Source of the DNA: Xylanimonas ulmi
GTDB lineage: Bacteria; Actinomycetota; Actinomycetes; Actinomycetales; Cellulomonadaceae
DNA: 64,000 nt
Direction of reading: 5' to 3'
Assembly: GCF_004216535.1 (NCBI RefSeq)
Contig: NZ_SGWX01000001.1
Span: 1,178,001-1,242,000 of the forward strand
Below the pieces are notes generated by a model. That model was given only the letters and a program-made list of their open reading frames with translations. It was not told where the DNA came from and searched no databases. Position 1 is the first letter of the stretch. Each line of letters starts with the position of its first letter. The translations under genes were made by a program, and so were the position numbers. Shown in pieces: positions 7,032 through 56,138 of this stretch.

Positions 7032-8189
7032 GTGAGCGATCGACGACCGCGTGTGCGGGGGACCGGCCCGCGCGGGCGTCCCGAGTCCGCCCTCGACGTG
7101 GCGGTGGCCGCCACGCCCGCGGGCCGCGACCGCGTGGTCGACCTGCTGCGCGTGGTGAGCATCGGCGTCGTGGTGCTGTGGCACTGGTCGCTGTCGCTCA
7201 CGCACTGGGGCGCCGACGGCGCGCTGACCATGCCGAACCCGATCCGCGACATCCCCGGCGGCTGGGCGGCGACCTGGGTGCTGCAGGTCATGCCGGTGTT
7301 CTTCTTCGTCGGGGGCTACGCCAACCTGGCCGGGTGGCAGGCCGTCGAGCGCGACGGCGGTGGCGCGGGGTTGTTCGTGGGGCGGCGCCTGCGCCGGCTG
7401 CTCGTGCCCGTGGCGCCCTGGGCCGCGTGCTGGGCGGCGTTCGACCTCGTCATGCTCGCGTCCGGCCGGCCCAGCGTCCTGCGCTGGGGGCTGGCCGTGC
7501 TGGCGCCCCTGTGGTTCCTGGGCGTGTACGCCGTCGTCATCACGCTGGTTCCCGTGACGGTGCGGCTGCACCGACGCTGGGGCTGGCGTGCGCCGGTCGC
7601 GCTCGCCGCCGTGGTGCTCGCCGCCGACGCGGTGCGGCTTGGGCCCGGCTGGGGCGCCCCTGTCGTCGGGTGGGTCGGCTCGCTCGCGGTCTTCGTGCTC
7701 GTCCACCAGCTCGGCTACTTCTGGCGCGACGGCACGCTGCTGCGGGGCGGGCGGCGCACGGCGGCGCTTGTCGCGGCGGTGGGGCTCACGGGCCTCGTCG
7801 CACTGACGGGCCTGGGACCGTACTCACGCTCGATGGTGGCGGTGGCGGGTGAGGGGGTCAGCAATATGTTCCCCACCACGGCGCCCATCGTGGCGCTCGC
7901 GGTCTTCCAACTCGGCCTGGCGCTGCTCGCGCGCCCGTGGCTCGCCGCGTGGCTGTCGCGACCAGGTCCGTGGCGCGTGGTCGTGGCGGCGAACGGCCTG
8001 GCCATGCCGGTGTTCGTGTGGCACATGACGGCGCTCGTGGCGTTCCTGTGGCTGTACGAGCGCACCGGGCACACGCTCAGCGCGGAGCCGACGGCGGCGT
8101 GGTGGCTCGGTCGTCCGGTGTGGGTGGTGGGACCGGGCCTCGTGCTCGCCGGGATTCTGGCGGTAGGCGCCCGCGTGCGACGACGGTAG
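7032..8189 (+). CDS. Acyltransferase family 3 membrane protein
   Basis: The GTG at 7032 follows GGAGGAAC and gives 385 residues. Longer upstream reading is antisense to arcD and arcA. After a basic N-terminus come about ten membrane segments. The first carries RVVDLLRVVSIGVVVLWHW, the family's Arg/His-containing motif, followed by LQVMPVFFFVGGY. This family transfers acyl groups (often O-acetyl) to extracytoplasmic glycans, lipids or peptides. The product is a paralogue of the 10945-12378 protein: RxVDLLR, GADGxLT and QVMPxFFxVGG recur in the same order. The acceptor molecule is not evident. Confidence 0.87.
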   Translation: MSDRRPRVRGTGPRGRPESALDVAVAATPAGRDRVVDLLRVVSIGVVVLWHWSLSLTHWGADGALTMPNPIRDIPGGWAATWVLQVMPVFFFVGGYANLAGWQAVERDGGGAGLFVGRRLRRLLVPVAPWAACWAAFDLVMLASGRPSVLRWGLAVLAPLWFLGVYAVVITLVPVTVRLHRRWGWRAPVALAAVVLAADAVRLGPGWGAPVVGWVGSLAVFVLVHQLGYFWRDGTLLRGGRRTAALVAAVGLTGLVALTGLGPYSRSMVAVAGEGVSNMFPTTAPIVALAVFQLGLALLARPWLAAWLSRPGPWRVVVAANGLAMPVFVWHMTALVAFLWLYERTGHTLSAEPTAAWWLGRPVWVVGPGLVLAGILAVGARVRRR

Positions 8190-8265
8190 GCGCCTGGAGC
8201 GACATTGACGTGCAGTTCGTCGGGATGGTGGTATATGCGCCGATCACCACATTCCGGAGGAATTC

Positions 8266-9774
8266 GTGTCTCTGTCCGATCTGTCCGCTCGCCAGTCCCA
8301 CACGCCTGACGGGCCGGTGCGCTACCGGGGTCGGCATCTGCCCATGGTGGCCGTCGTCCTCGCCGCGACCATCGCGACCGCCCTGGCCTACAGCGGCATG
8401 GTCCTGTTCGGGCTCGAGGTCGCGCACATGTCGCGCATCGAGGCGTTCGGGCTGGCCGGGTTCCTCGAGGTCAGCCTCGTCGCCGTCGCCCTCCTGGCAC
8501 GCAACGCCGCCCTGGAGGGGCGGCCGTACGGCGTGCTGCTGACGCTCACCTGGATCCTGTCCGGGACGTCGGGCATGTTCGCGGCGCTGCACCAGATCGC
8601 CGTGCCGGACGAGACGACGCCGTACATGGTGGCGTTCCGGTTTGTGCCGCCGCTGGTCGCGGCGCTCATGTGGCACCTAGCGCTGGTGGGGGAGCGGCAC
8701 CTGGTCACCGGGCACACGCTTGAGGAGCGGCGGCGCGAGCACCGGGTGCACCAGTACGTCACCGCGCTTGAGCTGTGGCGCGACGCGCGCGTCGACAGCC
8801 GCGGCGACAGCGCCGGGATGCGCAAGGTGCGTACGGCGCACCGGCGCCAGATCGCGGCGCGCGACAGCGCTCTGCGCATGCTGACCGTCGAGGACTTCGA
8901 GCAGCGCATGCAGGTGTGGGTCGAGAGGCTGGAGACCGCGGAGCGGCACGGCAGCCGACTCGACCTGATCGGAGCGACGTCAGCGCAGCGCGGGGTGAGC
9001 GCCGCGCGGCACGACGACGGCGTCGCGCCGGACCACCTCGCCGCGGTGACCGACGAGGCGCCGGTGGCGCCGGCGCCGGTGGAGGAGGCGGCGGTCGCGG
9101 GCCAGAGGGCCGACGACGGAGAGGCCGCCGACCCCGCGTCGTCGGAGCCGTTCGCCGAGGCGTTCGCGCAGGCGCTCGCCGCGTCCGACGACCCTGAGGT
9201 TGAGGTTGAGGTTGAGGTTGAGGTTGAGGGCGAGGGCGAGGCTCGGGCTGCCGCGCCGATGGCGACGGCCGAGGCGTGGACCGAGCCCCTGCCCGAGACG
9301 GGGCACACCCGTCGGGTCGAGCTCTTCGACCTGGTGCGGGACGCCGACCCTCTGCTCGGTGGAGCTGCCGCGCAACGCTCCGCCTTCTTCGTCGCGCATG
9401 GGGCCGTGGCGACGCCGCCCACGGCGGGCGAGGTCGGCGCGCCGCGGACGGTCGAGGTGAACGCTGACGCGAACGCCGGGGCCAACCCTCAGGTCGAACC
9501 TGAGGTCGGTGCCGGTGCGCGTGCCCGTGCGAACGATGGCGCGAGTGCTGAGGTCGTGGAGGGGAGTGCCCCACGGGAGCCCGAGCGCGTGGCTCCGGCC
9601 GTGTCGTCGGCGCCGAGCGCGGTCGAGCGCGACAGGCTCATCCGTGACCTCGCCGACCAGGGGCTGGCGCAGCGCGACATCGCGGCCCGGGTCTCGGCGT
9701 CGCGAGCCACCGTGAGCCGGGTGCTGCGCCAGCGCGCGACAGCCGGGGAGTCGGTCGGCGCGGTGACCCCGTAG
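8266..9774 (+). CDS. DUF2637-like four-helix membrane protein with C-terminal HTH
   Basis: The start is GTG after GGAGGAATTC. The 502-residue protein has three recognisable parts. Residues about 25-150 form four membrane segments resembling DUF2637, a family common in actinobacteria and their conjugative elements. A long linker rich in Ala/Glu/Val follows, with a basic section (RKVRTAHRRQ). The last about 50 residues form a helix-turn-helix (DLADQGLAQRDIAARVSASR, then ATVSRVLRQR). This looks like a membrane-tethered DNA-binding protein. The linker contains five exact GAGGTT hexamers encoding Glu-Val repeats. Target genes are unknown, though the MarR and acyltransferase genes follow. Confidence 0.75.
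   Translation: MSLSDLSARQSHTPDGPVRYRGRHLPMVAVVLAATIATALAYSGMVLFGLEVAHMSRIEAFGLAGFLEVSLVAVALLARNAALEGRPYGVLLTLTWILSGTSGMFAALHQIAVPDETTPYMVAFRFVPPLVAALMWHLALVGERHLVTGHTLEERRREHRVHQYVTALELWRDARVDSRGDSAGMRKVRTAHRRQIAARDSALRMLTVEDFEQRMQVWVERLETAERHGSRLDLIGATSAQRGVSAARHDDGVAPDHLAAVTDEAPVAPAPVEEAAVAGQRADDGEAADPASSEPFAEAFAQALAASDDPEVEVEVEVEVEGEGEARAAAPMATAEAWTEPLPETGHTRRVELFDLVRDADPLLGGAAAQRSAFFVAHGAVATPPTAGEVGAPRTVEVNADANAGANPQVEPEVGAGARARANDGASAEVVEGSAPREPERVAPAVSSAPSAVERDRLIRDLADQGLAQRDIAARVSASRATVSRVLRQRATAGESVGAVTP
9196..9228 (+). repeat. GAGGTT hexamer tandem repeat inside the DUF2637-HTH gene
   Basis: Five perfect GAGGTT copies occupy 9196-9225 and a sixth partial copy (GAG) follows, continuing as GAGGGC units to 9240. 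The repeat encodes (Glu-Val)5 then Glu-Gly. The unit is a multiple of three, so slippage would change linker length without shifting the frame. Confidence 0.9.
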
Positions 9775-10944: not shown

Positions 10945-12378
10945 ATGCCGACGATCGCCGAGTTGGCCCGACGCACCCCAGCCACGCGCCGCCGCCACGT
11001 CGACCTGCTGCGCGCGCTCGCGATGGGCGCCGTCGTCGTCGGCCACTGGCTGGTCATGACCGTCGAGCGCGGCGCGGACGGGCTCCTGACGGGCTTCACC
11101 GCGCTGCCGCACCTGACCGTGCTGCACCCGTTGACGTGGGTGTTCCAGGTCATGCCGCTGTTCTTCCTGGTCGGGGGAGTCTCCAACGCGATCTCCTGGA
11201 CCCGCGCCCGTGACCGGGGCCGCGACGCCGCGGGGTGGCTGCTCGACCGCAGCACGCGCCTGTTCCCACCCGTGACGGCGCTGCTGGTCACGACCGCCGT
11301 GGGCGCCGTCGTGGCCGGCTGGGCGGGCGCGCCGGCCGTGTTCGTCGCGCGCGTGGTCGAACTCGTGGTGCTGCCGCTGTGGTTCCTGGTCGTCTACCTC
11401 GCGCTGATCGCCCTGACCCCCGCGATGCACCGCCTGCACGAGCGCTGGGGCCTCGCGGTCCCGGCCGTGCTCCTGGTCGGCGTCGTGCTCGGCGATGTGG
11501 TGCGCCTGTCGACCGGGGTCGAGCTCGGCGCCGCCGGCAACTTCGCGTTCGCATGGCTCGCGGTGCACCAGCTCGGCTTCGCGTGGCGGGACGGCTCGCT
11601 GCGCCTGACGCGCGCCCGCGCGGCCGTGCTCCTGGCCGGCGCCGTGACCGCGCTTGTGCTGCTGACCGGCCCTGGCCCCTACCCCGTGAGCATGGTCTCG
11701 GTGCCGGGCGCCGCGATCCAGAACCCGTCGCCGCCCTCGCTCGCGCTCATGGCGCTCGCCGCCGCGCAGGTGGCCTTGGCCGTGCTGGTCGCGGGGCCGG
11801 CCGACCGGTGGCTGGCCCGACGCCGTCCCTGGGCCGCGGTGCTCGGGATGAACGCCACGGTGCTGACGGTGTACCTGTGGCACATGGTCGCCTCGTTCGT
11901 CGGTGCGATGCTGCTCGACGCCGTCGGGATGCTGCCGTCCTCGGACGTGCACTCGGCGGCGTGGTGGCTCGGGCGCGTGCCGTGGCTCGCGACGCTGAGC
12001 CTGGTGCTGGCCGTGTTCGTGGCGGTGTTCGGGCGCATCGAGACCCGGACGCTGACCCGCAAGCTCGCCCAGGGCGCCACTGCCGCGACGCCGCGAGGCC
12101 CGCTGGCCACACTGCCCGTCGTCCTGGGCGCCTACGGGGCGGCGGCGCTCGGCATGTACTGGCTCGCCTCGGCAGGCCGCGGCCCCCACGGCCCGTTCGT
12201 CGTGCCCACCGGCGCGCTCGCGCTGGTGCTGGGCGCGGCCGCGATGTTGCGTCTGGCGCGCACGGCGCGCGGCCGCGGGGTCGAGGCCGACGCCGTGACC
12301 GCCCCGACCAGGCCCGCGTGTGCCGGTCGGCGGGGCACGTCCGGACCATCGCGGGTGATCAGCGCCGCGCGCGACTAG
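10945..12378 (+). CDS. Acyltransferase family 3 membrane protein (second paralogue)
   Basis: This 477-residue integral membrane protein has the acyltransferase-3 signature RHVDLLRALAMGAVVVGHW at about residues 18-36, then WVFQVMPLFFLVGGVSN, and about ten to twelve membrane segments. It shares its motif order with the 7032-8189 protein but has an extra C-terminal membrane region. GAGGGGAACC precedes the ATG. The family usually modifies cell-surface glycans or lipids by O-acylation. It lies after the MarR gene and before the Mrp-type operon. The 207-nt gap before it contains no other recognisable gene. Confidence 0.87.
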   Translation: MPTIAELARRTPATRRRHVDLLRALAMGAVVVGHWLVMTVERGADGLLTGFTALPHLTVLHPLTWVFQVMPLFFLVGGVSNAISWTRARDRGRDAAGWLLDRSTRLFPPVTALLVTTAVGAVVAGWAGAPAVFVARVVELVVLPLWFLVVYLALIALTPAMHRLHERWGLAVPAVLLVGVVLGDVVRLSTGVELGAAGNFAFAWLAVHQLGFAWRDGSLRLTRARAAVLLAGAVTALVLLTGPGPYPVSMVSVPGAAIQNPSPPSLALMALAAAQVALAVLVAGPADRWLARRRPWAAVLGMNATVLTVYLWHMVASFVGAMLLDAVGMLPSSDVHSAAWWLGRVPWLATLSLVLAVFVAVFGRIETRTLTRKLAQGATAATPRGPLATLPVVLGAYGAAALGMYWLASAGRGPHGPFVVPTGALALVLGAAAMLRLARTARGRGVEADAVTAPTRPACAGRRGTSGPSRVISAARD

Positions 12379-14131: not shown

Positions 14132-14607
14132 TCCGGCGCTCGGTCCCCGTCGTCCTGGCGTTCATGGCGATCTGGGTGGTCATGGTCGAGATCGTGAGCC
14201 CGGTCGTGCTCGTCTCGGGCCTGGTGGTGGGTGTCGGCACGCTGGTGCTGACCAACCGCCTGCTCGGGGTCGACTACACGACGGTGTTCCTGAGCCCGCT
14301 CGCGACGCTGCGCTACGTGGGGGTGCTGCTGCGGGAGATGACGGTGGCGGCCTACGGCATGGCGGTGGTGATCGTGAGGGGGCGCGCCGAGGTGACCGAG
14401 TTCGTGTACGAGAGCGCGCTGCGCGACGACCTGCTGCTGTTCCTGCTGGCCAACAGCATGACGCTCACGCCCGGATCGGTCGCGGTGGACCGCGACGGTG
14501 CGCGCATCACCGTGCTCACGGTCGACGACGTCGCCACGGCCCGCGCCTCGTGCCTGCGGCTGGAGCGCTCGGTCGCCCGGCTGCGCAAGGAGGAGACGTG
14601 TTCCTGA
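14128..14607 (+). CDS. mrpE: Mrp-type antiporter subunit E
   Basis: The 159-residue product starts at an ATG overlapping the mrpD stop by 4 nt. It has two or three N-terminal membrane segments and a cytoplasmic C-terminal domain. The NSMTLTPGSVAV segment matches the family's N-x-x-T-LTPGT signature. MrpE supports assembly of the Mrp complex in other bacteria. The end overlaps mrpF by 10 nt, so translation is probably coupled. Confidence 0.9.
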   Translation: MIRRSVPVVLAFMAIWVVMVEIVSPVVLVSGLVVGVGTLVLTNRLLGVDYTTVFLSPLATLRYVGVLLREMTVAAYGMAVVIVRGRAEVTEFVYESALRDDLLLFLLANSMTLTPGSVAVDRDGARITVLTVDDVATARASCLRLERSVARLRKEETCS

Positions 14608-14861
14608 CGGTGGTCAGCTTCGTCCTGGTGGCCGCCTCCGTGCTCACCGGCGTCATCGTGCTGCGCGGCTCCGACCCGTGGAACCGGCTGCTGGGGTACT
14701 GCCTGGTGGCGGGCAAGGTCAACATGCTCGTGATCGTCCTCGCGCTGGTGACCGGGCAGAGCTTCTACCTCGACATCGCCCTGGTGTACACGCTGCTGAG
14801 CTACGTCGGGGTGCTCGTGCTGGCCGACTACATGGCGGGACGGGGGAGCGACCTTGACTAA
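14598..14861 (+). CDS. mrpF: Mrp-type antiporter subunit F
   Basis: The GTG at 14598 has AAGGAGGA upstream and gives an 87-residue protein with three membrane helices, matching MrpF size and topology. The segment RGSDPWNRLLGYCLVAGKVN resembles the family's D-R-hydrophobic region. A longer in-frame start at 14550 would overlap mrpE by 58 nt and lacks a better ribosome binding site. The end overlaps mrpG by 8 nt. Confidence 0.88.
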   Translation: MFLTVVSFVLVAASVLTGVIVLRGSDPWNRLLGYCLVAGKVNMLVIVLALVTGQSFYLDIALVYTLLSYVGVLVLADYMAGRGSDLD

Positions 14862-15141
14862 CGAGATCGTGGGCGACGTCGTCATCGGGATCGGCGTGGC
14901 CATCGTCGTGCTCGGGCTCGTCGGCCTGGTGCGGTTCAAGGAGTTCGACCTCAAACTCCTGGCGGGCGCCAAGATCGACACGGTCGGCCTCATCGTCATC
15001 GTGCTGGGCGCGGTGGTGCGCAGCGGGGTGAGCTGGCTCAGCGCCAAGGCGCTGCTCATCCTCGCGTTCGTGCTGATCGTCAACCCCGTGGTGACCAGCA
15101 CGCTGGCCGCGGGCGCGCGCAGACGCCGCAGGGGCGAGTGA
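14854..15141 (+). CDS. mrpG: Mrp-type antiporter subunit G
   Basis: The product has 95 residues, three membrane helices and a basic C-terminus. It starts with TTG and carries the MrpG-like RFKEFDLKLLAGAKIDTVGL segment linking the first two helices. The start lies inside the end of mrpF. An alternative ATG in this frame is not available, so the TTG is accepted with GGGGGAG upstream. It belongs to the same translationally coupled operon. Confidence 0.86.
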   Translation: MTNEIVGDVVIGIGVAIVVLGLVGLVRFKEFDLKLLAGAKIDTVGLIVIVLGAVVRSGVSWLSAKALLILAFVLIVNPVVTSTLAAGARRRRRGE

Positions 15142-16055
15142 TGGGCCTCGACCAGATCGTCTTCGTGTTCCTCATCGTGTTCGCGGTGCGCGCGGTGTTC
15201 GCCTCATGCCTCAAGCACGCCATCATCACCTCGGGCGTGTTCGGGCTGTGGGCGTCACTGGCGTACCTGCTCTACCACGCGCCCGACGTCGCGGTGTCCG
15301 AGGCCGTGGTCGCCTCGTCGCTCGGCACGGTGCTGCTGATCCTGGCCATCCGCCACTACGGCGACATCACGGTGCCGGGCATCGGGAAGATGGTCTGGCG
15401 GCGCAAGGGCGCCGACCTGGTCATCGTGGGCGCGTGCGCGCTCGTGCTGTACCTGACGGCCGCCACGCCGCCGGCCGGCGTCGGGGCGCTGCGCGAGGCC
15501 GTCATGACGACCTACCTGGACTCGCCGCGCCTGGTCAACCCGGTCACATCCGTCCTGCTGCACTACCGCGTGTTCGACACCGTGCTTGAGGCGCTCATGC
15601 TGCTGGTCGCGGTGCTGGGCGTCATGCACCTGCGCGACGACGCCGGCGGGCCGTCGCCGGCCGGGTACGGATCGCTGACGGCGCGCCACCCCACGGTGGT
15701 CAAGGCGCTGCAGATCCTCACCCCCGTGCTCATCATCGTGGGGCTGTCGCTCATCGTCGGCGACCCCTACACCCCCGGGGGCGGGTTCCAGGGCGCGGGC
15801 CTGCTCGCCGCCGTCATCGTCTCCCGCTACCTCATCGGCGTCCGCGGACCCGCCAGCACCAAGGCCCTCGAGACGCTCGAGAAGGTCATCTTCGTGGTGT
15901 TCGTGCTGAGCGTCGGGCTGTATGTGTTCCTGGGGCTGCGGGAGACGGCGCCGGACGCCTACGTCCCGTTCGTGCTCGCCATGAACGGACTGCTGGGCGT
16001 CAAGGTGTTCTGCGGGCTGTCGATCATGTTCCTGTACTTCGCGAGGGAGGCCTGA
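15141..16055 (+). CDS. Fused MrpA C-terminal (DUF4040/MbhE) and MrpB subunit
   Basis: Three modules are visible in 304 residues. Residues about 1-80 form a DUF4040/MbhD-like bundle (HAPDVAVSEAVVASSLGTVL). Residues about 90-170 match the MbhE-like extreme C-terminus of MrpA (NPVTSVLLHYRVFDTVLEAL). Residues about 190-300 are an MnhB/MrpB domain with PYTPGGGFQGAG. Full-length MrpA joins the first two modules to a NuoL-like domain; here they are fused to MrpB instead. GTG at 15138 is an equally possible start. The stop overlaps the mrpC ATG by one base. Confidence 0.88.
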   Translation: MGLDQIVFVFLIVFAVRAVFASCLKHAIITSGVFGLWASLAYLLYHAPDVAVSEAVVASSLGTVLLILAIRHYGDITVPGIGKMVWRRKGADLVIVGACALVLYLTAATPPAGVGALREAVMTTYLDSPRLVNPVTSVLLHYRVFDTVLEALMLLVAVLGVMHLRDDAGGPSPAGYGSLTARHPTVVKALQILTPVLIIVGLSLIVGDPYTPGGGFQGAGLLAAVIVSRYLIGVRGPASTKALETLEKVIFVVFVLSVGLYVFLGLRETAPDAYVPFVLAMNGLLGVKVFCGLSIMFLYFAREA

Positions 16056-23571: not shown

Positions 23572-25023
23572 TCAGCGCGCGCTCGGGCGACGCCGTCGGG
23601 CGAGCATCACCAGCGCCGCACCGGCGCCGAGCAGGGCGCCGGCCACGGCCAGTGCCGTGACGGCCTCCGCGCCCGTGCGCGGCAGGTACTGCGACAGCGG
23701 GTGCTGCGTGGCCGAGGCGTCCCGCACCACGCGGATGATCGAGCCGTCGTGGTCGTCCTCGTCGTTGTCGCGGTCGTTCTGGTCGTCGTCCGGCGTCATG
23801 GACGTGTTGGACTCGTTGACCTCGTTGTCCTCCCACGAGTGGTAGACCAGCTTGCCGTCCTCGACCGCGCTGTTGGAGCGGTCGGGCGTGGAGTCGACGT
23901 CGGGCACCTGCTGCCAGGAGCCGGCCACGCCGTCGTAGGTCTCGCTCGCGAGCGGCTGGGCGAAGCTGGCCATCATCGTGCGCGCGAGCGGCGCCGCGGA
24001 CGGCTCGGACGCCGCCGCCGGCTCGACCCCCGCGGGGACCCACCCGCTGAACCGAGAGATCTCGACGAAGGTGGGCAGGTCCTCCGACTCGTCGGCGTGC
24101 GTGCCGAGCGCCTCGGGCGTCACGCGCAGGGTGAGGTAGACCTTGAACCGCTCGCCGGGGGCCAGCACGATGCCCGCGTCCTCCATCGACATGTGCCACA
24201 GGCCGTCGGGGGCCAGCTCCCACCCGTCGTTGTCGTGCCCGGGGACGGTGTTCATGTACTGGCCGTCCGCGTACTCCAGTCCGACGCCGGAGTAGTTGAC
24301 GAGCTCGTCGACGCGCGCGGTGCGGTTGCCCTGGTTCAGCAGTTCGATGTCACGCACCAGCAGGTCGCCCACGTGGATGTCGACGGTGTCGTCGTCGTAG
24401 GTCACGTAGGGGATGATGTGCGACGGCCCGGGCTCGTCTGGCGATGACCGCCACTGGTAGATGAGCGAGCCGTCACGCCACACCTCGGAGACCCAGGTGC
24501 GCAGCGCGAGGTCGTACACGGGCTCGCCGTCGTCCGGGCCGTCCGCCTGCGCGGGCGCCTTCGGGTGGACGTCGACGTCGTAGAGCCAGCTCGCGCCGTC
24601 GTCCGGATCGGTCATCGGGATCGTGACGTAGAACGGCGCGACGCCCCCGACGGCCAACTGCTCGACGCGGTACAGGCCGACCGGAAGGCGCGAGAACGAC
24701 GCCTGCCCGGAGCCGTCGGTGACCCGCAGGTCGGCGGGCCCGAGGTTCGGGATCCCCTGGCCGCCCGAGGCGAGGCGGGCCGCCTCACGCCACCCCGAGT
24801 CGGAGGTCAGGTCGACGCCGTCGACCTGGGCGACCGCGAAGCGCTCCCCGGACGCGGGCCGCGCGGACGAGACGTCGTCGCCCATCCGGTAGGAGTGCAC
24901 CGTCAGGCTTCCGAGGCGGGTGGGGTCGATGACCGCGGACGACGCGGCGGCGGGGGTGGCGGCGGCGACGGGCGCGAGCGTGGCGCCCAGCGCCACCACC
25001 CAAGAGACCAGCTTGCGGTTCAT
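23572..25023 (-). CDS. LPXTG-anchored pilus-associated surface protein
   Basis: The ATG at 25023 has GGAGG upstream and gives 483 residues. The order is a signal peptide (residues 1-28, ending AAAASS), a SpaA-like beta domain with WLYDVDVHPKAP resembling the pilin motif W-x3-V-x-VYPK, a long middle region, an acidic low-complexity stretch (DDDQNDRDNDEDDHDG) and the sorting signal LPRTG with a hydrophobic helix and RRRR tail. Its ATG overlaps the sortase stop (ATGA). It is probably the minor pilin or tip/base subunit of the pilus encoded upstream; which of these is undecided. Confidence 0.82.
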   Translation of the reverse strand: MNRKLVSWVVALGATLAPVAAATPAAASSAVIDPTRLGSLTVHSYRMGDDVSSARPASGERFAVAQVDGVDLTSDSGWREAARLASGGQGIPNLGPADLRVTDGSGQASFSRLPVGLYRVEQLAVGGVAPFYVTIPMTDPDDGASWLYDVDVHPKAPAQADGPDDGEPVYDLALRTWVSEVWRDGSLIYQWRSSPDEPGPSHIIPYVTYDDDTVDIHVGDLLVRDIELLNQGNRTARVDELVNYSGVGLEYADGQYMNTVPGHDNDGWELAPDGLWHMSMEDAGIVLAPGERFKVYLTLRVTPEALGTHADESEDLPTFVEISRFSGWVPAGVEPAAASEPSAAPLARTMMASFAQPLASETYDGVAGSWQQVPDVDSTPDRSNSAVEDGKLVYHSWEDNEVNESNTSMTPDDDQNDRDNDEDDHDGSIIRVVRDASATQHPLSQYLPRTGAEAVTALAVAGALLGAGAALVMLARRRRPSAR

Positions 25024-25982
25024 GAACGCCTCCGGCGTCGGGTCAGGTTGCGGTCGGCGTGGCGCCGGCCGCCGGGAGAGGTGGAGGTGGACGGCGTCGT
25101 GTCGCGGCGCGCGGGCCAGAAGGCGAGGGCCATGACGCTCGCGGCGCCGCCGCCGTTGACGGCCGCCCACCACGGGAACCCCGGCCCGGTCACGGCACGG
25201 ACGACGGAGCCGCCGTCGTCGTCGGGATGGGGGTCGTCGGTCCGCTCACCGCGGACGAGTAGACGGTGGGTGTTGACGTAGGTGGGGAAGCACGTGGTGA
25301 GGGTCACCAAGTCCTTGCCCTCCTCGATGCGGATCAGGTCCGTCGAGTCGGACGCGCGGACCGGGGTGATCGAGGTGACCTCGTAGGCCAGGTGGCGGCC
25401 CATGACCGACAGCGTGAACACGTCGCCCACCTCGACCTCGGAGAGCCGGTTGAACAACGTGGCCTTGCTCCAGCCGGAGTGCGCGCCGATCACGGCGTGC
25501 GTCGACGGGCCTCCGACCGGCAGCGACGTGCCATACAGGTGGCCGGCGTTGGTGTCCAGCGCGGTCGGCGACGTGCCGTGCACCACGGGCAGCCGCGCGT
25601 CGATCGAGGCCACGTCCAGGTCCGCCATGAGCGACGTGCCGTCCACCGAGAGCAGGTCCGTGTAGGCGATGTACTCGGGGTCGGACTCGTCGGCGGCCCC
25701 GAACTCATGGATGTCGTGGCCGATCTCGCTCGCGCCGCCGGCCGCGAGCCAGGCGTTGTACTCCTGCGCCGCGGCGAACTGGGCGTCCTGCTCGTGCGAC
25801 GGCGTCGCGTCATGCGCCTGCGCGAACTGCGCGGTGCGGCTGGCGGCGGCGCGGTCGTTGAACCACGTCACCGCGGGGTTCCACTGCTACACGGCGATCG
25901 CCGCGACCACCAGGACTGCGACGACGACACGGACCGCGAGGGCCCGGCGCTGCGCGGACCGGTTGAGCTTGTGGCGGGGCAT
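25020..25982 (-). pseudogene. Class C sortase with in-frame amber codon in the N-terminal anchor
   Basis: From ATG 25982, preceded by GGGAGG, the frame encodes a basic N-terminus and a hydrophobic helix (VRVVVAVLVVAAIAV). It then meets TAG at 25887-25889 (codon 32) and continues in frame without shift to TGA at 25020. The rest is an intact class C sortase: VIGAHSGW with the catalytic His, TLTTCFPTYVNTHRLLVRG with Cys and Arg, and a C-terminal membrane helix. Such enzymes polymerise pilins. The defect could be a real nonsense mutation, a sequencing error, or bypassed by restart at GTG 25871, which would remove the anchor. The gene lies between the pilin and the second LPXTG gene. Confidence 0.85.
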
Positions 25983-26091
25983 GGAACCTCCCTCCCGCAC
26001 AGGTGATGGCTGGGTCATGTGCGCGCCACACGGGCGCTGGTGAGGGGCGCGGCCCCGGAGGTGACGCTCCGGGGCCGCGCGGGGAGTCGCG

Positions 26092-27498
26092 TCAGTCGTT
26101 CACGCGACGGGACCGCACGAGCCACAGCACACCGCCGCCGGCGAGCACCACGGCGATGATCGGCAGAACGGCGCGGTTGCCACCGATCGCGGGGAGGGCG
26201 AAGGGGCGCTCCGGCGCGTTGTGGACGACAATGGTGTACTCGCCCTTGTTCGCCGAGAGGAGCTTGAACTCCCGGGGCGTCTTGTCGGGCTGGTAGCCCT
26301 CAGGAGGGTCCGTCTCGACCAACCAGTACGTCTGCGCCGGGCTCAGAGACTGATTGTCTGCAAAGTCAGAGTAGCGGAGAGTGAAAGTCACGGTGCCGTT
26401 TACCGTCTTGCGCGGTTCGACGATATACGGGCCTTCTGTCGCAGCATCTTCGGAGGCGGCGATCGCGAACGTGGCGCCGTCGAGCAGGTCGCCGGACGCC
26501 GCGTCGAGCTTATTGACCGTGAGTTGACCCCACATAGTTGTCACTTCGGCTGATGTGCCGCTGTAGACGTTGCTGCCGACGATCATTTCGTAGGATGCAT
26601 CGTTCGTAATCACGCCAGGACTATTGACAGTAGCTTCGATGCTGAAGCCGATGTCGGTGGTTTTGCTGATCGCGTCAAGAAGGACCTCTGGGAGTTTGAC
26701 TGTGAGCGTATTGCTCGCCGTGTCGAGCGGGCTACCATTCAAAGTCTTAAATTGCTCATCGTAGTCGACTATGGGGGATGGAGCCGGATCACCCGCGTGA
26801 GCGAGTGTGAGCGAGTTGACATTCGGCACGAGCCGCTTGTCGAATATGTCAGTGATTGTTACGGAAGTTGTGCCCGGAGGGACTGGAATCGTCACCGTGT
26901 ACTTGACTGGCTTGGTGACGTCGGCGTCCGAGACTGTCTTGGATATCAGACTCTTCTCGTTCTTGGGGTACACGTGCACGTCATAGATCCACTTGTCGCC
27001 GCCCGGATTCAGCGTGGGCACCGTCACGAGGAACTGCTCAGTTTCCGGCACACCAGCGGGTGCATCGATTTCGGTAACAAGGTAGAGCCCGACGTTTAGG
27101 TCCCTGACCTTGATGACGCCGTCCGCGTCGGTCTTGTGAAGCGTTTGCTCGGGGTCGGCCGAAATCAGAGCGGCTGCCTCTGTGGGCGTCATGGTCGCCG
27201 CAGTCGTCCAGCCTACGGGTGTCGTGAGATTCACCCCGGTCACCTGCTCGATCGTGAACGTGACGCCCTCAATCGGGATACCCTGGACGTCCTCATCCTC
27301 GCCGGTTGCGGCGTCACCGAGCTGCTCCGGTGCGACCAGTTTGGTGATGGTGATGCTGCCCGTCGCACTCGAGTCGATCTTCTCCGGGCCAACGACCACC
27401 GGGTCGTTTGGATCGGCGAGTGCGGATTGGGGCATTGCGAGCAGTGCCACGATTGCTGGGATGAGGACGGCTCTGCGTCCCCTGGTCTTCTTGACCAC
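26092..27498 (-). CDS. SpaA-type major pilin, isopeptide-forming
   Basis: GTG 27498 with AAGGGA upstream gives 468 residues; an upstream ATG at 27570 is less likely. A signal peptide ends QSALA. Domain 1 contains LYLVTEIDAPAG and the pilin motif WIYDVHVYPKNEK, whose lysine is the polymerisation site. The last domain has the E-box YWLVETDPPEGYQ, whose glutamate directs isopeptide bonding. The sorting signal is LPAIGG, followed by a helix and RSRR. It is predicted to form the pilus shaft. GC is low: 61 of 120 bases at 26521-26640. It follows the adhesin gene and precedes the sortase. Confidence 0.9.
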   Translation of the reverse strand: MVKKTRGRRAVLIPAIVALLAMPQSALADPNDPVVVGPEKIDSSATGSITITKLVAPEQLGDAATGEDEDVQGIPIEGVTFTIEQVTGVNLTTPVGWTTAATMTPTEAAALISADPEQTLHKTDADGVIKVRDLNVGLYLVTEIDAPAGVPETEQFLVTVPTLNPGGDKWIYDVHVYPKNEKSLISKTVSDADVTKPVKYTVTIPVPPGTTSVTITDIFDKRLVPNVNSLTLAHAGDPAPSPIVDYDEQFKTLNGSPLDTASNTLTVKLPEVLLDAISKTTDIGFSIEATVNSPGVITNDASYEMIVGSNVYSGTSAEVTTMWGQLTVNKLDAASGDLLDGATFAIAASEDAATEGPYIVEPRKTVNGTVTFTLRYSDFADNQSLSPAQTYWLVETDPPEGYQPDKTPREFKLLSANKGEYTIVVHNAPERPFALPAIGGNRAVLPIIAVVLAGGGVLWLVRSRRVND

Positions 27499-27612
27499 GG
27501 TGGGTCCCTTCTTGATCAGCGGACCGTTTTCGGTCTGTTCGAGAGCGGATTTCAATATTGCGGGCCGCATTGTTGGAGGAGGCTTCCGCGAGTTGGGCGG
27601 GCGTACGGAGCG

Positions 27613-29364
27613 TCAGCGGATGCGGTGTCGACGGTTGCGCCGCGAGGCGGCGAGGAGATAGACGGCACCGATTGCCGCGATCGAGGCCGCGACCGCGGGG
27701 ATGGCACCCGGAGTTCCGCCGACTGGCGGGAGCGGAGGGCCCTTCGCCCAGTCGTCTGGCGTTGGTGTGGGTGTCGGCGTCGGGTCGGGAGAGGGCGCGC
27801 CGCAAGGGGTGACGGAGACCGTAGCGGTGGCGGGCGCGGAAGTCACCGACTGCGCTCCGAACTGTCCGGACGCGTGGGCTTCGTTGACGAACTGGCACAC
27901 GGGAGTGCCCGTCCCTGCCGCGGTGACCTCTTCCGACGTGAGCTTGTGGGTTGCCGTGAACGTCTGCGTCTCATTCGGCCCGAGGGTGACAGGCGAGCTA
28001 GGTGCGAGGGTCCCATGATCGATGAGATCGTCCTCGATCGTGACGCCGGTGAGCGTCGTCGTCCCAGTGTTCTTGACGTCGAACTCGTAGGCGATCGTTT
28101 CGCCCACCCCATATCCGACGCTCTCTCCTCGCACGGTCTTCACGATCTCCAGCGCCGGGGCCGGAGCGTCGACGAGCGTGGTGATCTTGAGCATGCGGAT
28201 GAGGTGGACGTCGGTGAAGTGACCAGTCGACCCGGCAAACCCGAACTTGAAATTCTCGGGCATGGGTTCCGTCATGCGGTACGACAGGAGTGGCGCGCTT
28301 TCGGCGAGGGTCTCTCGCTTTCCATCGAAGGCGACGAAGACCTGGACGAGCGGCTTCTCCTCAGGAGAGACGATGATGCGGACGAGTCGCTTCGACTCAT
28401 CGAGAAGACGCTCCATTTTCTTGTCCTCTGACATCCCCGCCCATCCCGTGATGCCGCCAGTCCATCTTGGATCGTGACTGCTCGGGCCGCCGAGGAGACC
28501 AGGGAGTGTGGTCGTCGGCTTCTTGGTGGAGGGAAGGACGATTGTCGACGTCAGGTATTCGTATCCGTCAAAACCATTTCCCGGACCGCGTAGCGTGATC
28601 GTATTGTCGGCGTTGTCCTTCCAATCGGATCCGGCAGGCGAGAAAGTTCCTGGGTAGTAGCATTTTTTCTTGAGGCCGCCGGCGGATTCGCCACCGGTGG
28701 ATCCTCTGCATTCGGGGTCGTCTTGAATGTAGTTTCCGAGGACGTCGAATCCGATTCCGAGATATCCGTGATCAACGCCACGTGTCCACGTCCCATCCTC
28801 GTCGCGCTTCTGCGCGTACCCGAGAGATCCGCCATAGGCTCCTGGGGTGTCAAGATTCGCGGTGCCATCGACGATGAAGAAGCCGATTCCGTCGGCGGGC
28901 GCCTGGGTGTTCGACGTGGCCGGTGTCGTCGAGTTGAACTGGTACATCTCGAACGTGACGTCGATTCCGCCGGAGGCGCTAATTGCGTGGTCGTACAGAA
29001 CGGCTCCGACTTTGTTGTGGTTGTTGTCGGTGAGTTGGAGGTAGCCGTCCACGGACGCGTCCGGCCCCGGGGCGCCATTACGCGTACCCGTCTGCTCGAC
29101 ATTCGCGCCGTTGGGGCCCTTATCGAGACCCACCTTGGGTGCGAAGACGGTACCGTCGGGCGCATTCGTGAGTCCGGCGTGTCCGAGAAGTTTGAAGTTC
29201 GAGTCCTGCAACCTATCGCCGGTGAAGTCCTCATTGAGGAGCGGCGTCGGCACGGCGTTTGGCATCTCGTCGGCGGCCGCCGTTGGCTGGGATGCGACGT
29301 CGACCACCAAGGCAAGGCCCAATGTCGCCACTGCGATCGCTGCGATGGGTTTCGTCAGTCGCAC
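27613..29364 (-). CDS. Lectin-like surface adhesin with DUF11-like domain and LPXXG-type anchor
   Basis: GTG 29364 follows AGGAGG at 8-nt spacing and gives 583 residues; the longer upstream frame lacks signal character. After a signal peptide ending TAAAD comes a large domain resembling bacterial L-type lectins (DGYLQLTDNNHNKVGAVLYD, ADGIGFFIVDG, GSLGYAQ, GYLGIGFDVLGNY). A DUF11-like beta domain follows (IVKTVRG, YEFDVKNTGTTTLTGV), then a PTPTPTP wall spacer, LPPVGG, a helix and a basic tail. It heads the pilus locus and is probably its adhesive tip or a co-expressed adhesin. GC is low (33 of 60 at 28621-28680). The sugar target is unknown. Confidence 0.83.
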   Translation of the reverse strand: MRLTKPIAAIAVATLGLALVVDVASQPTAAADEMPNAVPTPLLNEDFTGDRLQDSNFKLLGHAGLTNAPDGTVFAPKVGLDKGPNGANVEQTGTRNGAPGPDASVDGYLQLTDNNHNKVGAVLYDHAISASGGIDVTFEMYQFNSTTPATSNTQAPADGIGFFIVDGTANLDTPGAYGGSLGYAQKRDEDGTWTRGVDHGYLGIGFDVLGNYIQDDPECRGSTGGESAGGLKKKCYYPGTFSPAGSDWKDNADNTITLRGPGNGFDGYEYLTSTIVLPSTKKPTTTLPGLLGGPSSHDPRWTGGITGWAGMSEDKKMERLLDESKRLVRIIVSPEEKPLVQVFVAFDGKRETLAESAPLLSYRMTEPMPENFKFGFAGSTGHFTDVHLIRMLKITTLVDAPAPALEIVKTVRGESVGYGVGETIAYEFDVKNTGTTTLTGVTIEDDLIDHGTLAPSSPVTLGPNETQTFTATHKLTSEEVTAAGTGTPVCQFVNEAHASGQFGAQSVTSAPATATVSVTPCGAPSPDPTPTPTPTPDDWAKGPPLPPVGGTPGAIPAVAASIAAIGAVYLLAASRRNRRHRIR

Positions 29365-29716
29365 CGGGAGCACCTCCTGCGCTTTCTCACTGCGTTGACC
29401 GAACAGCCGGCGGTTGTTCGAGGATGTGTCTAGGTTGCGGTTCGTGGGAGCGGCGACTGGGCGCGGGGCGTGAGACGCGCGCCGGGGTGGCGACGATTCG
29501 CGCCCGCGACTTGACGCCACTGCAGTGGGTATGCTTCAGGTAAAGGACGGGTCCCGGGCGGCTTTCGTGAGGGTCACGTACCGAGCGGTTCAGTCATGCG
29601 AGGTTGCGGTCACGTCACCATGGGGCGAGACGCTCACCGGCGGGATGCCCTCGGGTCTCGGCGTTGTGCGCACACTGCCCTCCGCAGGGATCCACCACGT
29701 GAACAGGAAGGCGCCA
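29365..29716. other. Divergent control region between adhesin and chelatase genes
   Basis: No gene is evident in these 352 bases, although the chelatase frame stays open upstream. CCACTGCAGTGG at 29517-29528 is a perfect 12-bp palindrome between TTGACG (29511-29516) and TATGCT (29530-29535). The 13-nt spacing is too short for a normal -35/-10 pair, so the palindrome may be an operator next to a -10 box. I found no cobalamin or SAM riboswitch core. Confidence 0.35.
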
Positions 29717-39232: not shown

Positions 39233-39355
39233 GCGGGACAAAGTGACGCCCGGCTGAACCCCGGGTGGAGCGCGGGCGACCACGCGCGGGCCGCGATGAA
39301 CTTCGCGTGAACGTGTTCGCCCCAGGGCCGCATCGGCTTGATTCACGCCGCCCCG

Positions 39356-53243: not shown

Positions 53244-56138
53244 ATGGCCACCGCCGACACCCCCGAGAGCCTCAGCCCGGCCGAGCGGTACGCGGCCTCG
53301 CGCGCCCGCACCACCCGCTCCCAGGTCGGCTCGGGCACCCGGCTCGCCGAGTTCCGCTCCGGCCTCGGCTTCGAGCTCGACGACTTCCAGGTCACCGCCT
53401 GCCAGGCCCTCGAGGACGGGCGCGGGGTGCTGGTCGCCGCGCCCACCGGCGCGGGCAAGACCGTTGTGGGGGAGTTCGCCGTCCACCTGGCCCTCGCCCA
53501 GGGCGGCAAGGCGTTCTACACCACCCCGATCAAGGCGCTGTCGAACCAGAAGTACGCCGACCTGGCCCGCCGCCACGGCGCGCACAACGTCGGCCTGCTC
53601 ACCGGCGACACCACCCTCAACGGGGAGGCGCCCATCGTCGTCATGACGACCGAGGTGCTGCGCAACATGCTCTACGCCGGTTCGCGCACGCTCGACGGAC
53701 TGCAGTTCGTCGTCATGGACGAGGTGCACTATCTCGCCGACCGCTTCCGCGGGCCCGTGTGGGAGGAGGTCATCATCCACCTCGCCGACCACGTGCAGCT
53801 CGTCTCGCTGTCGGCGACCGTCTCCAACGCCGAGGAGTTCGGCGACTGGCTGGAGATGGTGCGCGGCGACACCGCCGTCGTCGTCTCCGAGCGGCGGCCC
53901 GTGCCGCTGTGGCAGCACGTCGTGGTCTCCGCGCCCGAGCCGCGCGGCGTCCCCCGCCTCATGGACCTGTACGCGGGGCATGTCGACCCCACCGACCCCG
54001 GCGTCAACCCGCCCATCAACCCCGACCTGAGCCACGTGTTCCGCGTCTCGGGCCGCCGTGACGACCCCGGCGCGCGGCGCGGGCCTGGCGACCGCGGCTA
54101 CCGGGGCCGCGGCGGTCACCGGCCCGGCGGAGCGGTGGGCCTCGCCCCGCAACGGCGCACGCCGCCCCGGTTCGCCGTGGTCGACGCCCTCGACGCCGAC
54201 GCGCTGCTGCCCGCGATCTACTTCATCTTCTCGCGCGCCGGATGCGAGGGCGCCGTGCAGCAATGCCTCGGCGCGGGGCTGCGCCTGACCTCCCCGGCCG
54301 AGGAGGCCGAGATCCGCGGCGTCGTCGAGCAGCGCACCGCGACCATCCCGCCCGAGGACCTCGACGTGCTCGGCTACTGGCCCTGGCTGCACGCGCTGGC
54401 CCGCGGCGTCGCCGCCCACCACGCCGGGCTGCTGCCCGTCTTCAAGGAGACCGTCGAGGACCTGTTCGCGCGCGGCCTGGTCAAGGTGGTCTTCGCCACC
54501 GAGACGCTCGCGCTCGGCATCAACATGCCCGCCCGCTCCGTGGTGCTGGAGAAGCTCGTCAAATGGGACGGCACGGCCCACCAGCCCGTCACCCCCGGCG
54601 AGTACACCCAGCTCACCGGGCGTGCCGGACGGCGCGGCATCGACGTCGAGGGGCACGCCGTCGTCGTCGACCACAGCGGACTCGACCCCGTCGCCCTCGC
54701 CGGCCTGGCCAGCCGCCGCCTGTACCCGCTGCGCTCCTCGTTCCGGCCCACCTACAACATGGCCGTCAACCTCGTCTCCCAGGTCGGCCACGACCGCGCC
54801 CGCGAGGTCCTGGAGACCTCGTTCGCGCAGTTCCAGGCCGACCGCGGCGTCGTCGGCCTCGCCAAGCAGGCGCAGGCGCACGCCGAGGCCCTGGCCGGGT
54901 ACGTCAAAGCCATGACGTGCGACGTCGGAGACTTCGCCGAGTACATGGGCATCAGGCGCCGCATCAGCGCACGCGAACGGGACCTGTCGCGCGCCGCCTC
55001 GGGCACACGCCGCGCCGAGGCCGTCGCCTCGTTCGAGCGCCTCAAGCGCGGCGACGTCATCGAGGTTCCCTCCGGACGGCGGCGCGGGTACGTCACCGTG
55101 CTCGACCCCGGCCTTGACGAGCGCAGCTTCGACGGGCCGCGCCCCACCGTCCTGACCCAGGAGCGGCAGGTCAAGCGGCTCACCCTGGCCGACGCGCCGG
55201 GCGGGGTCAGCGTCGTCACCCGCGTCAAGATCCCCAAGGCGTTCAACGCCCGCCGCCCCGACGCCCGCCGCGACCTCGCCTCGTCCATGCGCAACGCCCT
55301 GGGCGCGCTGCGCGACGACCTGCCCGGCTCAGACCGGCGCGGCGGGCGCGGCCCGCGCCCCGGCCAAGGCCCGGGCAAGCGGCCGGACGCCGCCTCCGAC
55401 AGCGAGCTGTTGCACCTGCGCGCCGCGCTGCGCGCCCACCCGTGCCACGGCTGCCCCGACCGCGACGACCACGCCCGTTGGGCCGAGCGCCACGACACGC
55501 TCGCCGCCGAGCACCACCGCCTCGTCCAGCGCATCGAGGGCCGCACCGGCACCGTCGCGCGCACGTTCGACCGCACGTGCGCCGTCCTGGAGAGGCTGGG
55601 CTACCTGGAGCGCGACGGCGAGTTGCGCGTCACCGCCGACGGCGCGTGGCTGCGGCGCGTCTACGCCGAGAACGACCTGCTGCTGGCCGAGTGCCTGCGC
55701 CGCGGCGCGTGGGACGGCCTGGACGCCCCCGGCCTGGCCGCCGCCGTCTCGACCGTCGTCTACTCCGGGCGCCGCGAGGACGCGGCCGAGCCCTACGTGC
55801 CCGGCGGGCCGCACGGCCGCCTCGCCTCAGCCCTCGACGCCACGACCCGCGTGTGGTCGGACCTGACGGACCTGGAGGAGCAGCACGGCCTCGACGCGAC
55901 CAGCCCGCTCGACCTCGGCATCGTCGCCCCCGTGCACCGCTGGGCCGCCGGCAAGGGGCTCGACGCCGTGCTACGCGGCACCGACCTGGCCGCCGGGGAC
56001 TTCGTGCGCTGGTGCAAACAGGTCGTCGACGTGCTCGACCAGCTCGCCCAGGCCGCGCCTACCCCCGCGCTGCGCGCCACCGCGCGACGCGCCAAGGACG
56101 CGGTGCTGCGCGGCGTCGTCGCCTACTCCAGCCTGTAG
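53244..56138 (+). CDS. helY: HelY-type Ski2/Mtr4-like DExH RNA helicase
   Basis: The 964-residue protein resembles actinobacterial HelY. Motifs in order are the Q-type lead FELDDFQVTACQAL, Walker A AAPTGAGKTVV (about residue 65-72), DEVH at 159-162 (VVMDEVHYLADR), SATVSNAEEFG, ETLALGINMPARSV, and motif VI QLTGRAGRRGID. Between the RecA-like domains is a Gly/Arg-rich insert (GDRGYRGRGGHRPGG). A C-terminal DSHCT-type region and a CHGCPDRDDH cysteine pair follow. Related enzymes unwind RNA for decay; the bacterial substrate is not established. Confidence 0.93.
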   Translation: MATADTPESLSPAERYAASRARTTRSQVGSGTRLAEFRSGLGFELDDFQVTACQALEDGRGVLVAAPTGAGKTVVGEFAVHLALAQGGKAFYTTPIKALSNQKYADLARRHGAHNVGLLTGDTTLNGEAPIVVMTTEVLRNMLYAGSRTLDGLQFVVMDEVHYLADRFRGPVWEEVIIHLADHVQLVSLSATVSNAEEFGDWLEMVRGDTAVVVSERRPVPLWQHVVVSAPEPRGVPRLMDLYAGHVDPTDPGVNPPINPDLSHVFRVSGRRDDPGARRGPGDRGYRGRGGHRPGGAVGLAPQRRTPPRFAVVDALDADALLPAIYFIFSRAGCEGAVQQCLGAGLRLTSPAEEAEIRGVVEQRTATIPPEDLDVLGYWPWLHALARGVAAHHAGLLPVFKETVEDLFARGLVKVVFATETLALGINMPARSVVLEKLVKWDGTAHQPVTPGEYTQLTGRAGRRGIDVEGHAVVVDHSGLDPVALAGLASRRLYPLRSSFRPTYNMAVNLVSQVGHDRAREVLETSFAQFQADRGVVGLAKQAQAHAEALAGYVKAMTCDVGDFAEYMGIRRRISARERDLSRAASGTRRAEAVASFERLKRGDVIEVPSGRRRGYVTVLDPGLDERSFDGPRPTVLTQERQVKRLTLADAPGGVSVVTRVKIPKAFNARRPDARRDLASSMRNALGALRDDLPGSDRRGGRGPRPGQGPGKRPDAASDSELLHLRAALRAHPCHGCPDRDDHARWAERHDTLAAEHHRLVQRIEGRTGTVARTFDRTCAVLERLGYLERDGELRVTADGAWLRRVYAENDLLLAECLRRGAWDGLDAPGLAAAVSTVVYSGRREDAAEPYVPGGPHGRLASALDATTRVWSDLTDLEEQHGLDATSPLDLGIVAPVHRWAAGKGLDAVLRGTDLAAGDFVRWCKQVVDVLDQLAQAAPTPALRATARRAKDAVLRGVVAYSSL

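Follow-up and report, generated by a model that had tools for sequence, protein, structure and literature searches.

A pilus cassette with an interrupted sortase gene

The window (the whole 64,000-nucleotide stretch of Xylanimonas ulmi DNA that was analyzed) contains a cassette of four minus-strand genes that encode a putative tip adhesin, a shaft pilin, a sortase, and a minor/base pilin (Table 1). All three pilin genes have uninterrupted frames; the sortase gene, the only class C sortase gene in the cassette, carries one in-frame stop codon. The sortase adjoins three genes that encode LPxTG-like sorting signals, one of which is a SpaH-type shaft pilin (NF033902, 238 bits). The cassette resembles the Corynebacterium/Actinomyces-type SpaH/EbpB clusters, in which genes for tip, shaft, and base pilins likewise surround a single class C sortase gene; it differs from them in the LPxIG/LPxVG signals of the shaft and tip pilins and in the motif of the orthologous sortases (WQWNP instead of the usual YPxxS). 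Because the ATG of the base pilin gene overlaps the TGA of the sortase gene, translation of the base pilin is probably coupled to that of the sortase.

Table 1. Features of the pilus cassette (positions in the window).
Feature	Positions	Strand	Description	Basis
Putative tip adhesin gene	27613–29520	minus	intact; weak L-type lectin match, DUF7507/DUF11 repeat, sorting signal LPPVG	
Major (shaft) pilin gene	26092–27570	minus	intact; SpaH/EbpB family, YPK pilin motif, sorting signal LPAIG	
Hairpin	26046–26080	minus	strong, about 14 bp, between the shaft pilin and sortase genes; also at this position in both related species	
Class C (pilin-polymerizing) sortase gene	25020–25982	minus	one in-frame stop	frame inspection, profile match, orthologs
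N-terminal membrane helix	25890–25940	minus	residues 15–31; hydropathy peak	
In-frame TAG	25887–25889	minus	codon 32, end of the N-terminal membrane helix; Trp in both syntenic orthologs	
Proposed restart GTG	25869–25871	minus	codon 38, first in-frame GTG 3′ of the stop; CTC in both relatives	
Minor/base pilin gene	23572–25023	minus	intact; sorting signal LPRTG; ATG overlaps the sortase TGA (ATGA)	

The initial annotation described an otherwise intact class C sortase with a sound start and a single TAG at the end of its membrane anchor, and each part of this description holds when the frame is read again. The frame runs from ATG 25982 to TGA 25022–25020 with the TAG as its lone interruption; the ATG is preceded by a strong Shine-Dalgarno sequence, GGGAGGGAGG (duplex −11.5 kcal/mol), and both are kept in the closest ortholog, so the start is correctly placed and the TAG lies inside the gene. 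The hydropathy peak that marks the N-terminal helix ends immediately before the TAG, that is, the helix is encoded but severed from the enzyme part. The remnant 3′ of the TAG is open from 25886 to 25020, with no second lesion; it matches the NCBIfam class_C_sortase profile NF033745 (195 bits; cut-off 160) and Pfam Sortase (73 bits), and its sequence-nearest solved structures are class C sortases. As had been proposed, this remnant still encodes the catalytic residues His (GAHSG), Cys (TLTTC), and Arg (HRLLVRG), each of them invariant across the ortholog alignment; the hydrophobic stretch at the C-terminus, with a hydropathy value of 1.25, is weak.

Orthologs and the age of the stop

We searched for orthologs in eleven genomes of the genus, one of them the window's own. 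Two of the others, G004 and G001, encode orthologs (78% and 73% identical, respectively) in the same gene order and with uninterrupted frames; a search of 222 genomes of the family and a 396-genome sample of the order gave no other ortholog this close, and the best match outside the genus is 45% identical, has the canonical motif, and is accompanied by a shaft pilin with an LPFTG signal. Aligning the early codons with those of close relatives, a check suggested by the initial annotation, identifies the expected residue: the equivalent of codon 32 is a tryptophan codon in both G004 and G001. Where class C sortases have an N-terminal GYPSY motif with an essential proline, the orthologs read WQWNPA, which has a proline and lacks the canonical YPxxS of the paralogs.

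The cassettes of the three species (23572–29520 in the window; L040; L044) share several further features. In all three, the shaft and tip pilins have LPxIG/LPxVG signals; judged from these signals and the WQWNP motif, the cassette and its sortase may form a small separate subgroup limited to the genus. The hairpin, of roughly 12–15 pairs, is found in the pilin-sortase gap of all three species (L010 and L011 in the relatives), where it may reduce expression of the sortase relative to the shaft pilin. The pilins are 36–57% identical between the species, compared with 73–79% for the sortase, and the flanking genes are conserved; fast divergence of pilins beside conserved flanks is as expected for a diversifying surface structure.

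The part of the sortase gene 3′ of the stop has 14 lineage-unique amino-acid changes in the window copy, compared with 18 in G004 and 33 in G001, and pairwise dN/dS for this part is 0.26–0.34, as in a constrained gene. With no excess of unique changes and dN/dS in this range, the window copy, as judged from its sequence, is not decaying; together with the lack of a second lesion, this means that the stop either arose recently or is an error.

A sequencing or assembly error, which would leave the sortase gene intact and which the initial annotation had listed as one of three outcomes, would agree with a lesion that is a single substitution in a gene otherwise under normal constraint. However, a comparison with syntenic orthologs that covered 37 conserved window genes, or 43,416 coding bases, turned up no stop or frameshift other than the sortase TAG; this lesion background applies to the window. 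Because a stop results from only about 2% of single substitutions in these genes, a single stop caused by error within 43 kb would be expected to come with tens of further errors nearby. Indels, the usual fault of long-read sequencing, affect none of the conserved window genes; in G001, by contrast, two or three frameshifts seem to be present. The TAG lies outside any homopolymer. The clean surroundings thus argue against poor assembly, and we regard an erroneous base call as unlikely.

Apparent stops in other genes of the window were considered and rejected, each being located upstream of the real start or in a shadow frame. The apparently frameshifted genes in G001, seen as split alignments in the same stretch (L043, near 7690–9359 and 14476–15389), are intact in the window and could be either assembly errors or pseudogenes.

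Readthrough and restart

The initial annotation held that TAG is a normal stop in this organism and that recoding is improbable, and our results agree on both points. TAG ends three of 38 conserved window genes (those starting near 10945, at 39338, and at 53262), and the last of these encodes a HelY-like helicase. If the TAG in the sortase gene were read through by a suppressor tRNA, by programmed readthrough, or after reassignment, low-level readthrough might suffice, because a sortase is a catalytic enzyme that may be needed only in small amounts; also, the UAG is followed by C, in general a relatively leaky context. Nevertheless, RF1 is present in the genome; no CUA anticodon occurs among the tRNAs called by ARAGORN (50 Rfam tRNA matches and the tRNA-Ser of the window), and the tRNA-Trp that was found has the anticodon CCA. 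The RNA 3′ of the stop shows no unusual folding of a kind that might promote readthrough (z = 0.05), and the relatives have no TAG at codon 32. Readthrough is therefore extremely improbable.

A second outcome offered by the initial annotation was a restart at GTG 25871 that yields a working sortase without its membrane anchor. This GTG is in frame and 15 bases 3′ of the stop, close enough for re-initiation, and the whole catalytic domain is encoded 3′ of it. However, its Shine-Dalgarno pairing (−3.3 kcal/mol, compared with −11.5 kcal/mol at the true start) is equaled or surpassed by roughly 40% of random GTGs, and 44% of all GTGs on the same strand reach −3 kcal/mol or better; the bases upstream thus provide no usable ribosome-binding site. 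Nor do the relatives share this start: the codon is CTC in G004 and G001. A protein made from this GTG would carry no signal for export, with its one remaining hydrophobic stretch at the C-terminus, and would also lack the N-terminal proline; in Lactobacillus rhamnosus, the counterpart of this proline is required for function of the pilin-specific sortase and thus for pilus assembly (PMC4829219). Given the weak Shine-Dalgarno sequence, the unconserved start, and the loss of both anchor and proline, we judge that any restart here would be without function; a working sortase from GTG 25871 is very improbable.

Predicted consequences and precedents

The remaining outcome offered by the initial annotation, a pilus that is switched off, fits these results best, with a real and recent nonsense mutation as its cause. 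We consider it quite probable that a tryptophan codon recently mutated to TAG, in nature or during cultivation, producing a null allele of the cassette's only class C sortase. Translation would then end after a 31-residue membrane peptide, and no polymerizing enzyme from this locus would reach the membrane. Without a polymerizing sortase, the shaft pilins of sortase-built pili stay unpolymerized; the shaft, tip, and base pilins would be expected to remain monomers, either held by their hydrophobic tails or singly attached by another sortase. Translation of the base pilin would probably be reduced as well, through lost coupling or polarity, given the ATGA overlap. It is highly doubtful that the TAG allele is instead a maintained polymorphism, that is, an allele selected in some settings so that part of the population displays unpolymerized pilins.

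The genome, a single contig of 3,965,098 bases, encodes ten sortases besides the interrupted one. At least six of the ten are class C-like, with uninterrupted N-termini and a YP/FP-type motif, and pilins with LPLTG, LPKTG, or LPVTG signals adjoin six of the other sortases. The signals in the cassette are LPAIG, LPPVG, and LPRTG, compared with the LPLTG-like signals beside these six, a difference that gives no clear indication of rescue by a paralog; partial rescue is possible, and the ten other sortases might partly stand in for the interrupted one.

A family-wide habit of N-terminal stops was also considered and rejected: the internal stops in the paralogs L013 and L032 are located at or beyond the C-terminal ends of the genes. 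Two class C sortases of the same genome, L035 (at 1.11 Mb) and L032 (at 3.24 Mb), have almost the same sequence along most of their length, which suggests recent duplication or conversion of a pilus cluster.

Lesions of this type are known. The closest precedent is L. rhamnosus PB12, in which a stop in srtC1 is associated with the absence of pili and with SpaA present only as monomers, and in which an intact srtC1 restores pili (PMC4829219). As in the cassette described here, the stop lies within a pilin-specific class C sortase gene and the pilin genes are otherwise present; however, PB12 belongs to another phylum and has another pilus type, and loss of pili, monomers, and rescue were proven there by experiment, whereas here we infer the phenotype from sequence. 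Similarly, Enterococcus faecalis deleted for the class C sortase bps forms only monomers and small oligomers (PMC3708956).

Nonsense or pseudogene alleles have also been described for a minor pilin in Streptococcus suis (PMC2797073), for pitA and srtG2 in pneumococcal PI-2 (PMC3178606), and for srtB, spaF, spaG, and spaB in Corynebacterium diphtheriae (PMC4600297). The srtB pseudogene in C. diphtheriae ISS 4060 and the srtG2 pseudogene in PI-2 are like the allele in the window in that some strains or species have lost a sortase of the cluster that relatives keep intact; however, both of those clusters keep a second pilus sortase, whereas the cassette described here contains a single one. Nonsense alleles of pilus genes, those for class C sortases included, are thus already documented, and the lesion is most likely a recent loss of function of an ordinary, known type that does not reveal a new mechanism.

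For the organism, an actinobacterium of soil or gut type, a count of pili based on annotation is probably one too high for this genome, and the sequenced strain may not display a pilus that its relatives can build. For the genus, a natural null allele beside intact orthologs could serve as a control for work on pili.
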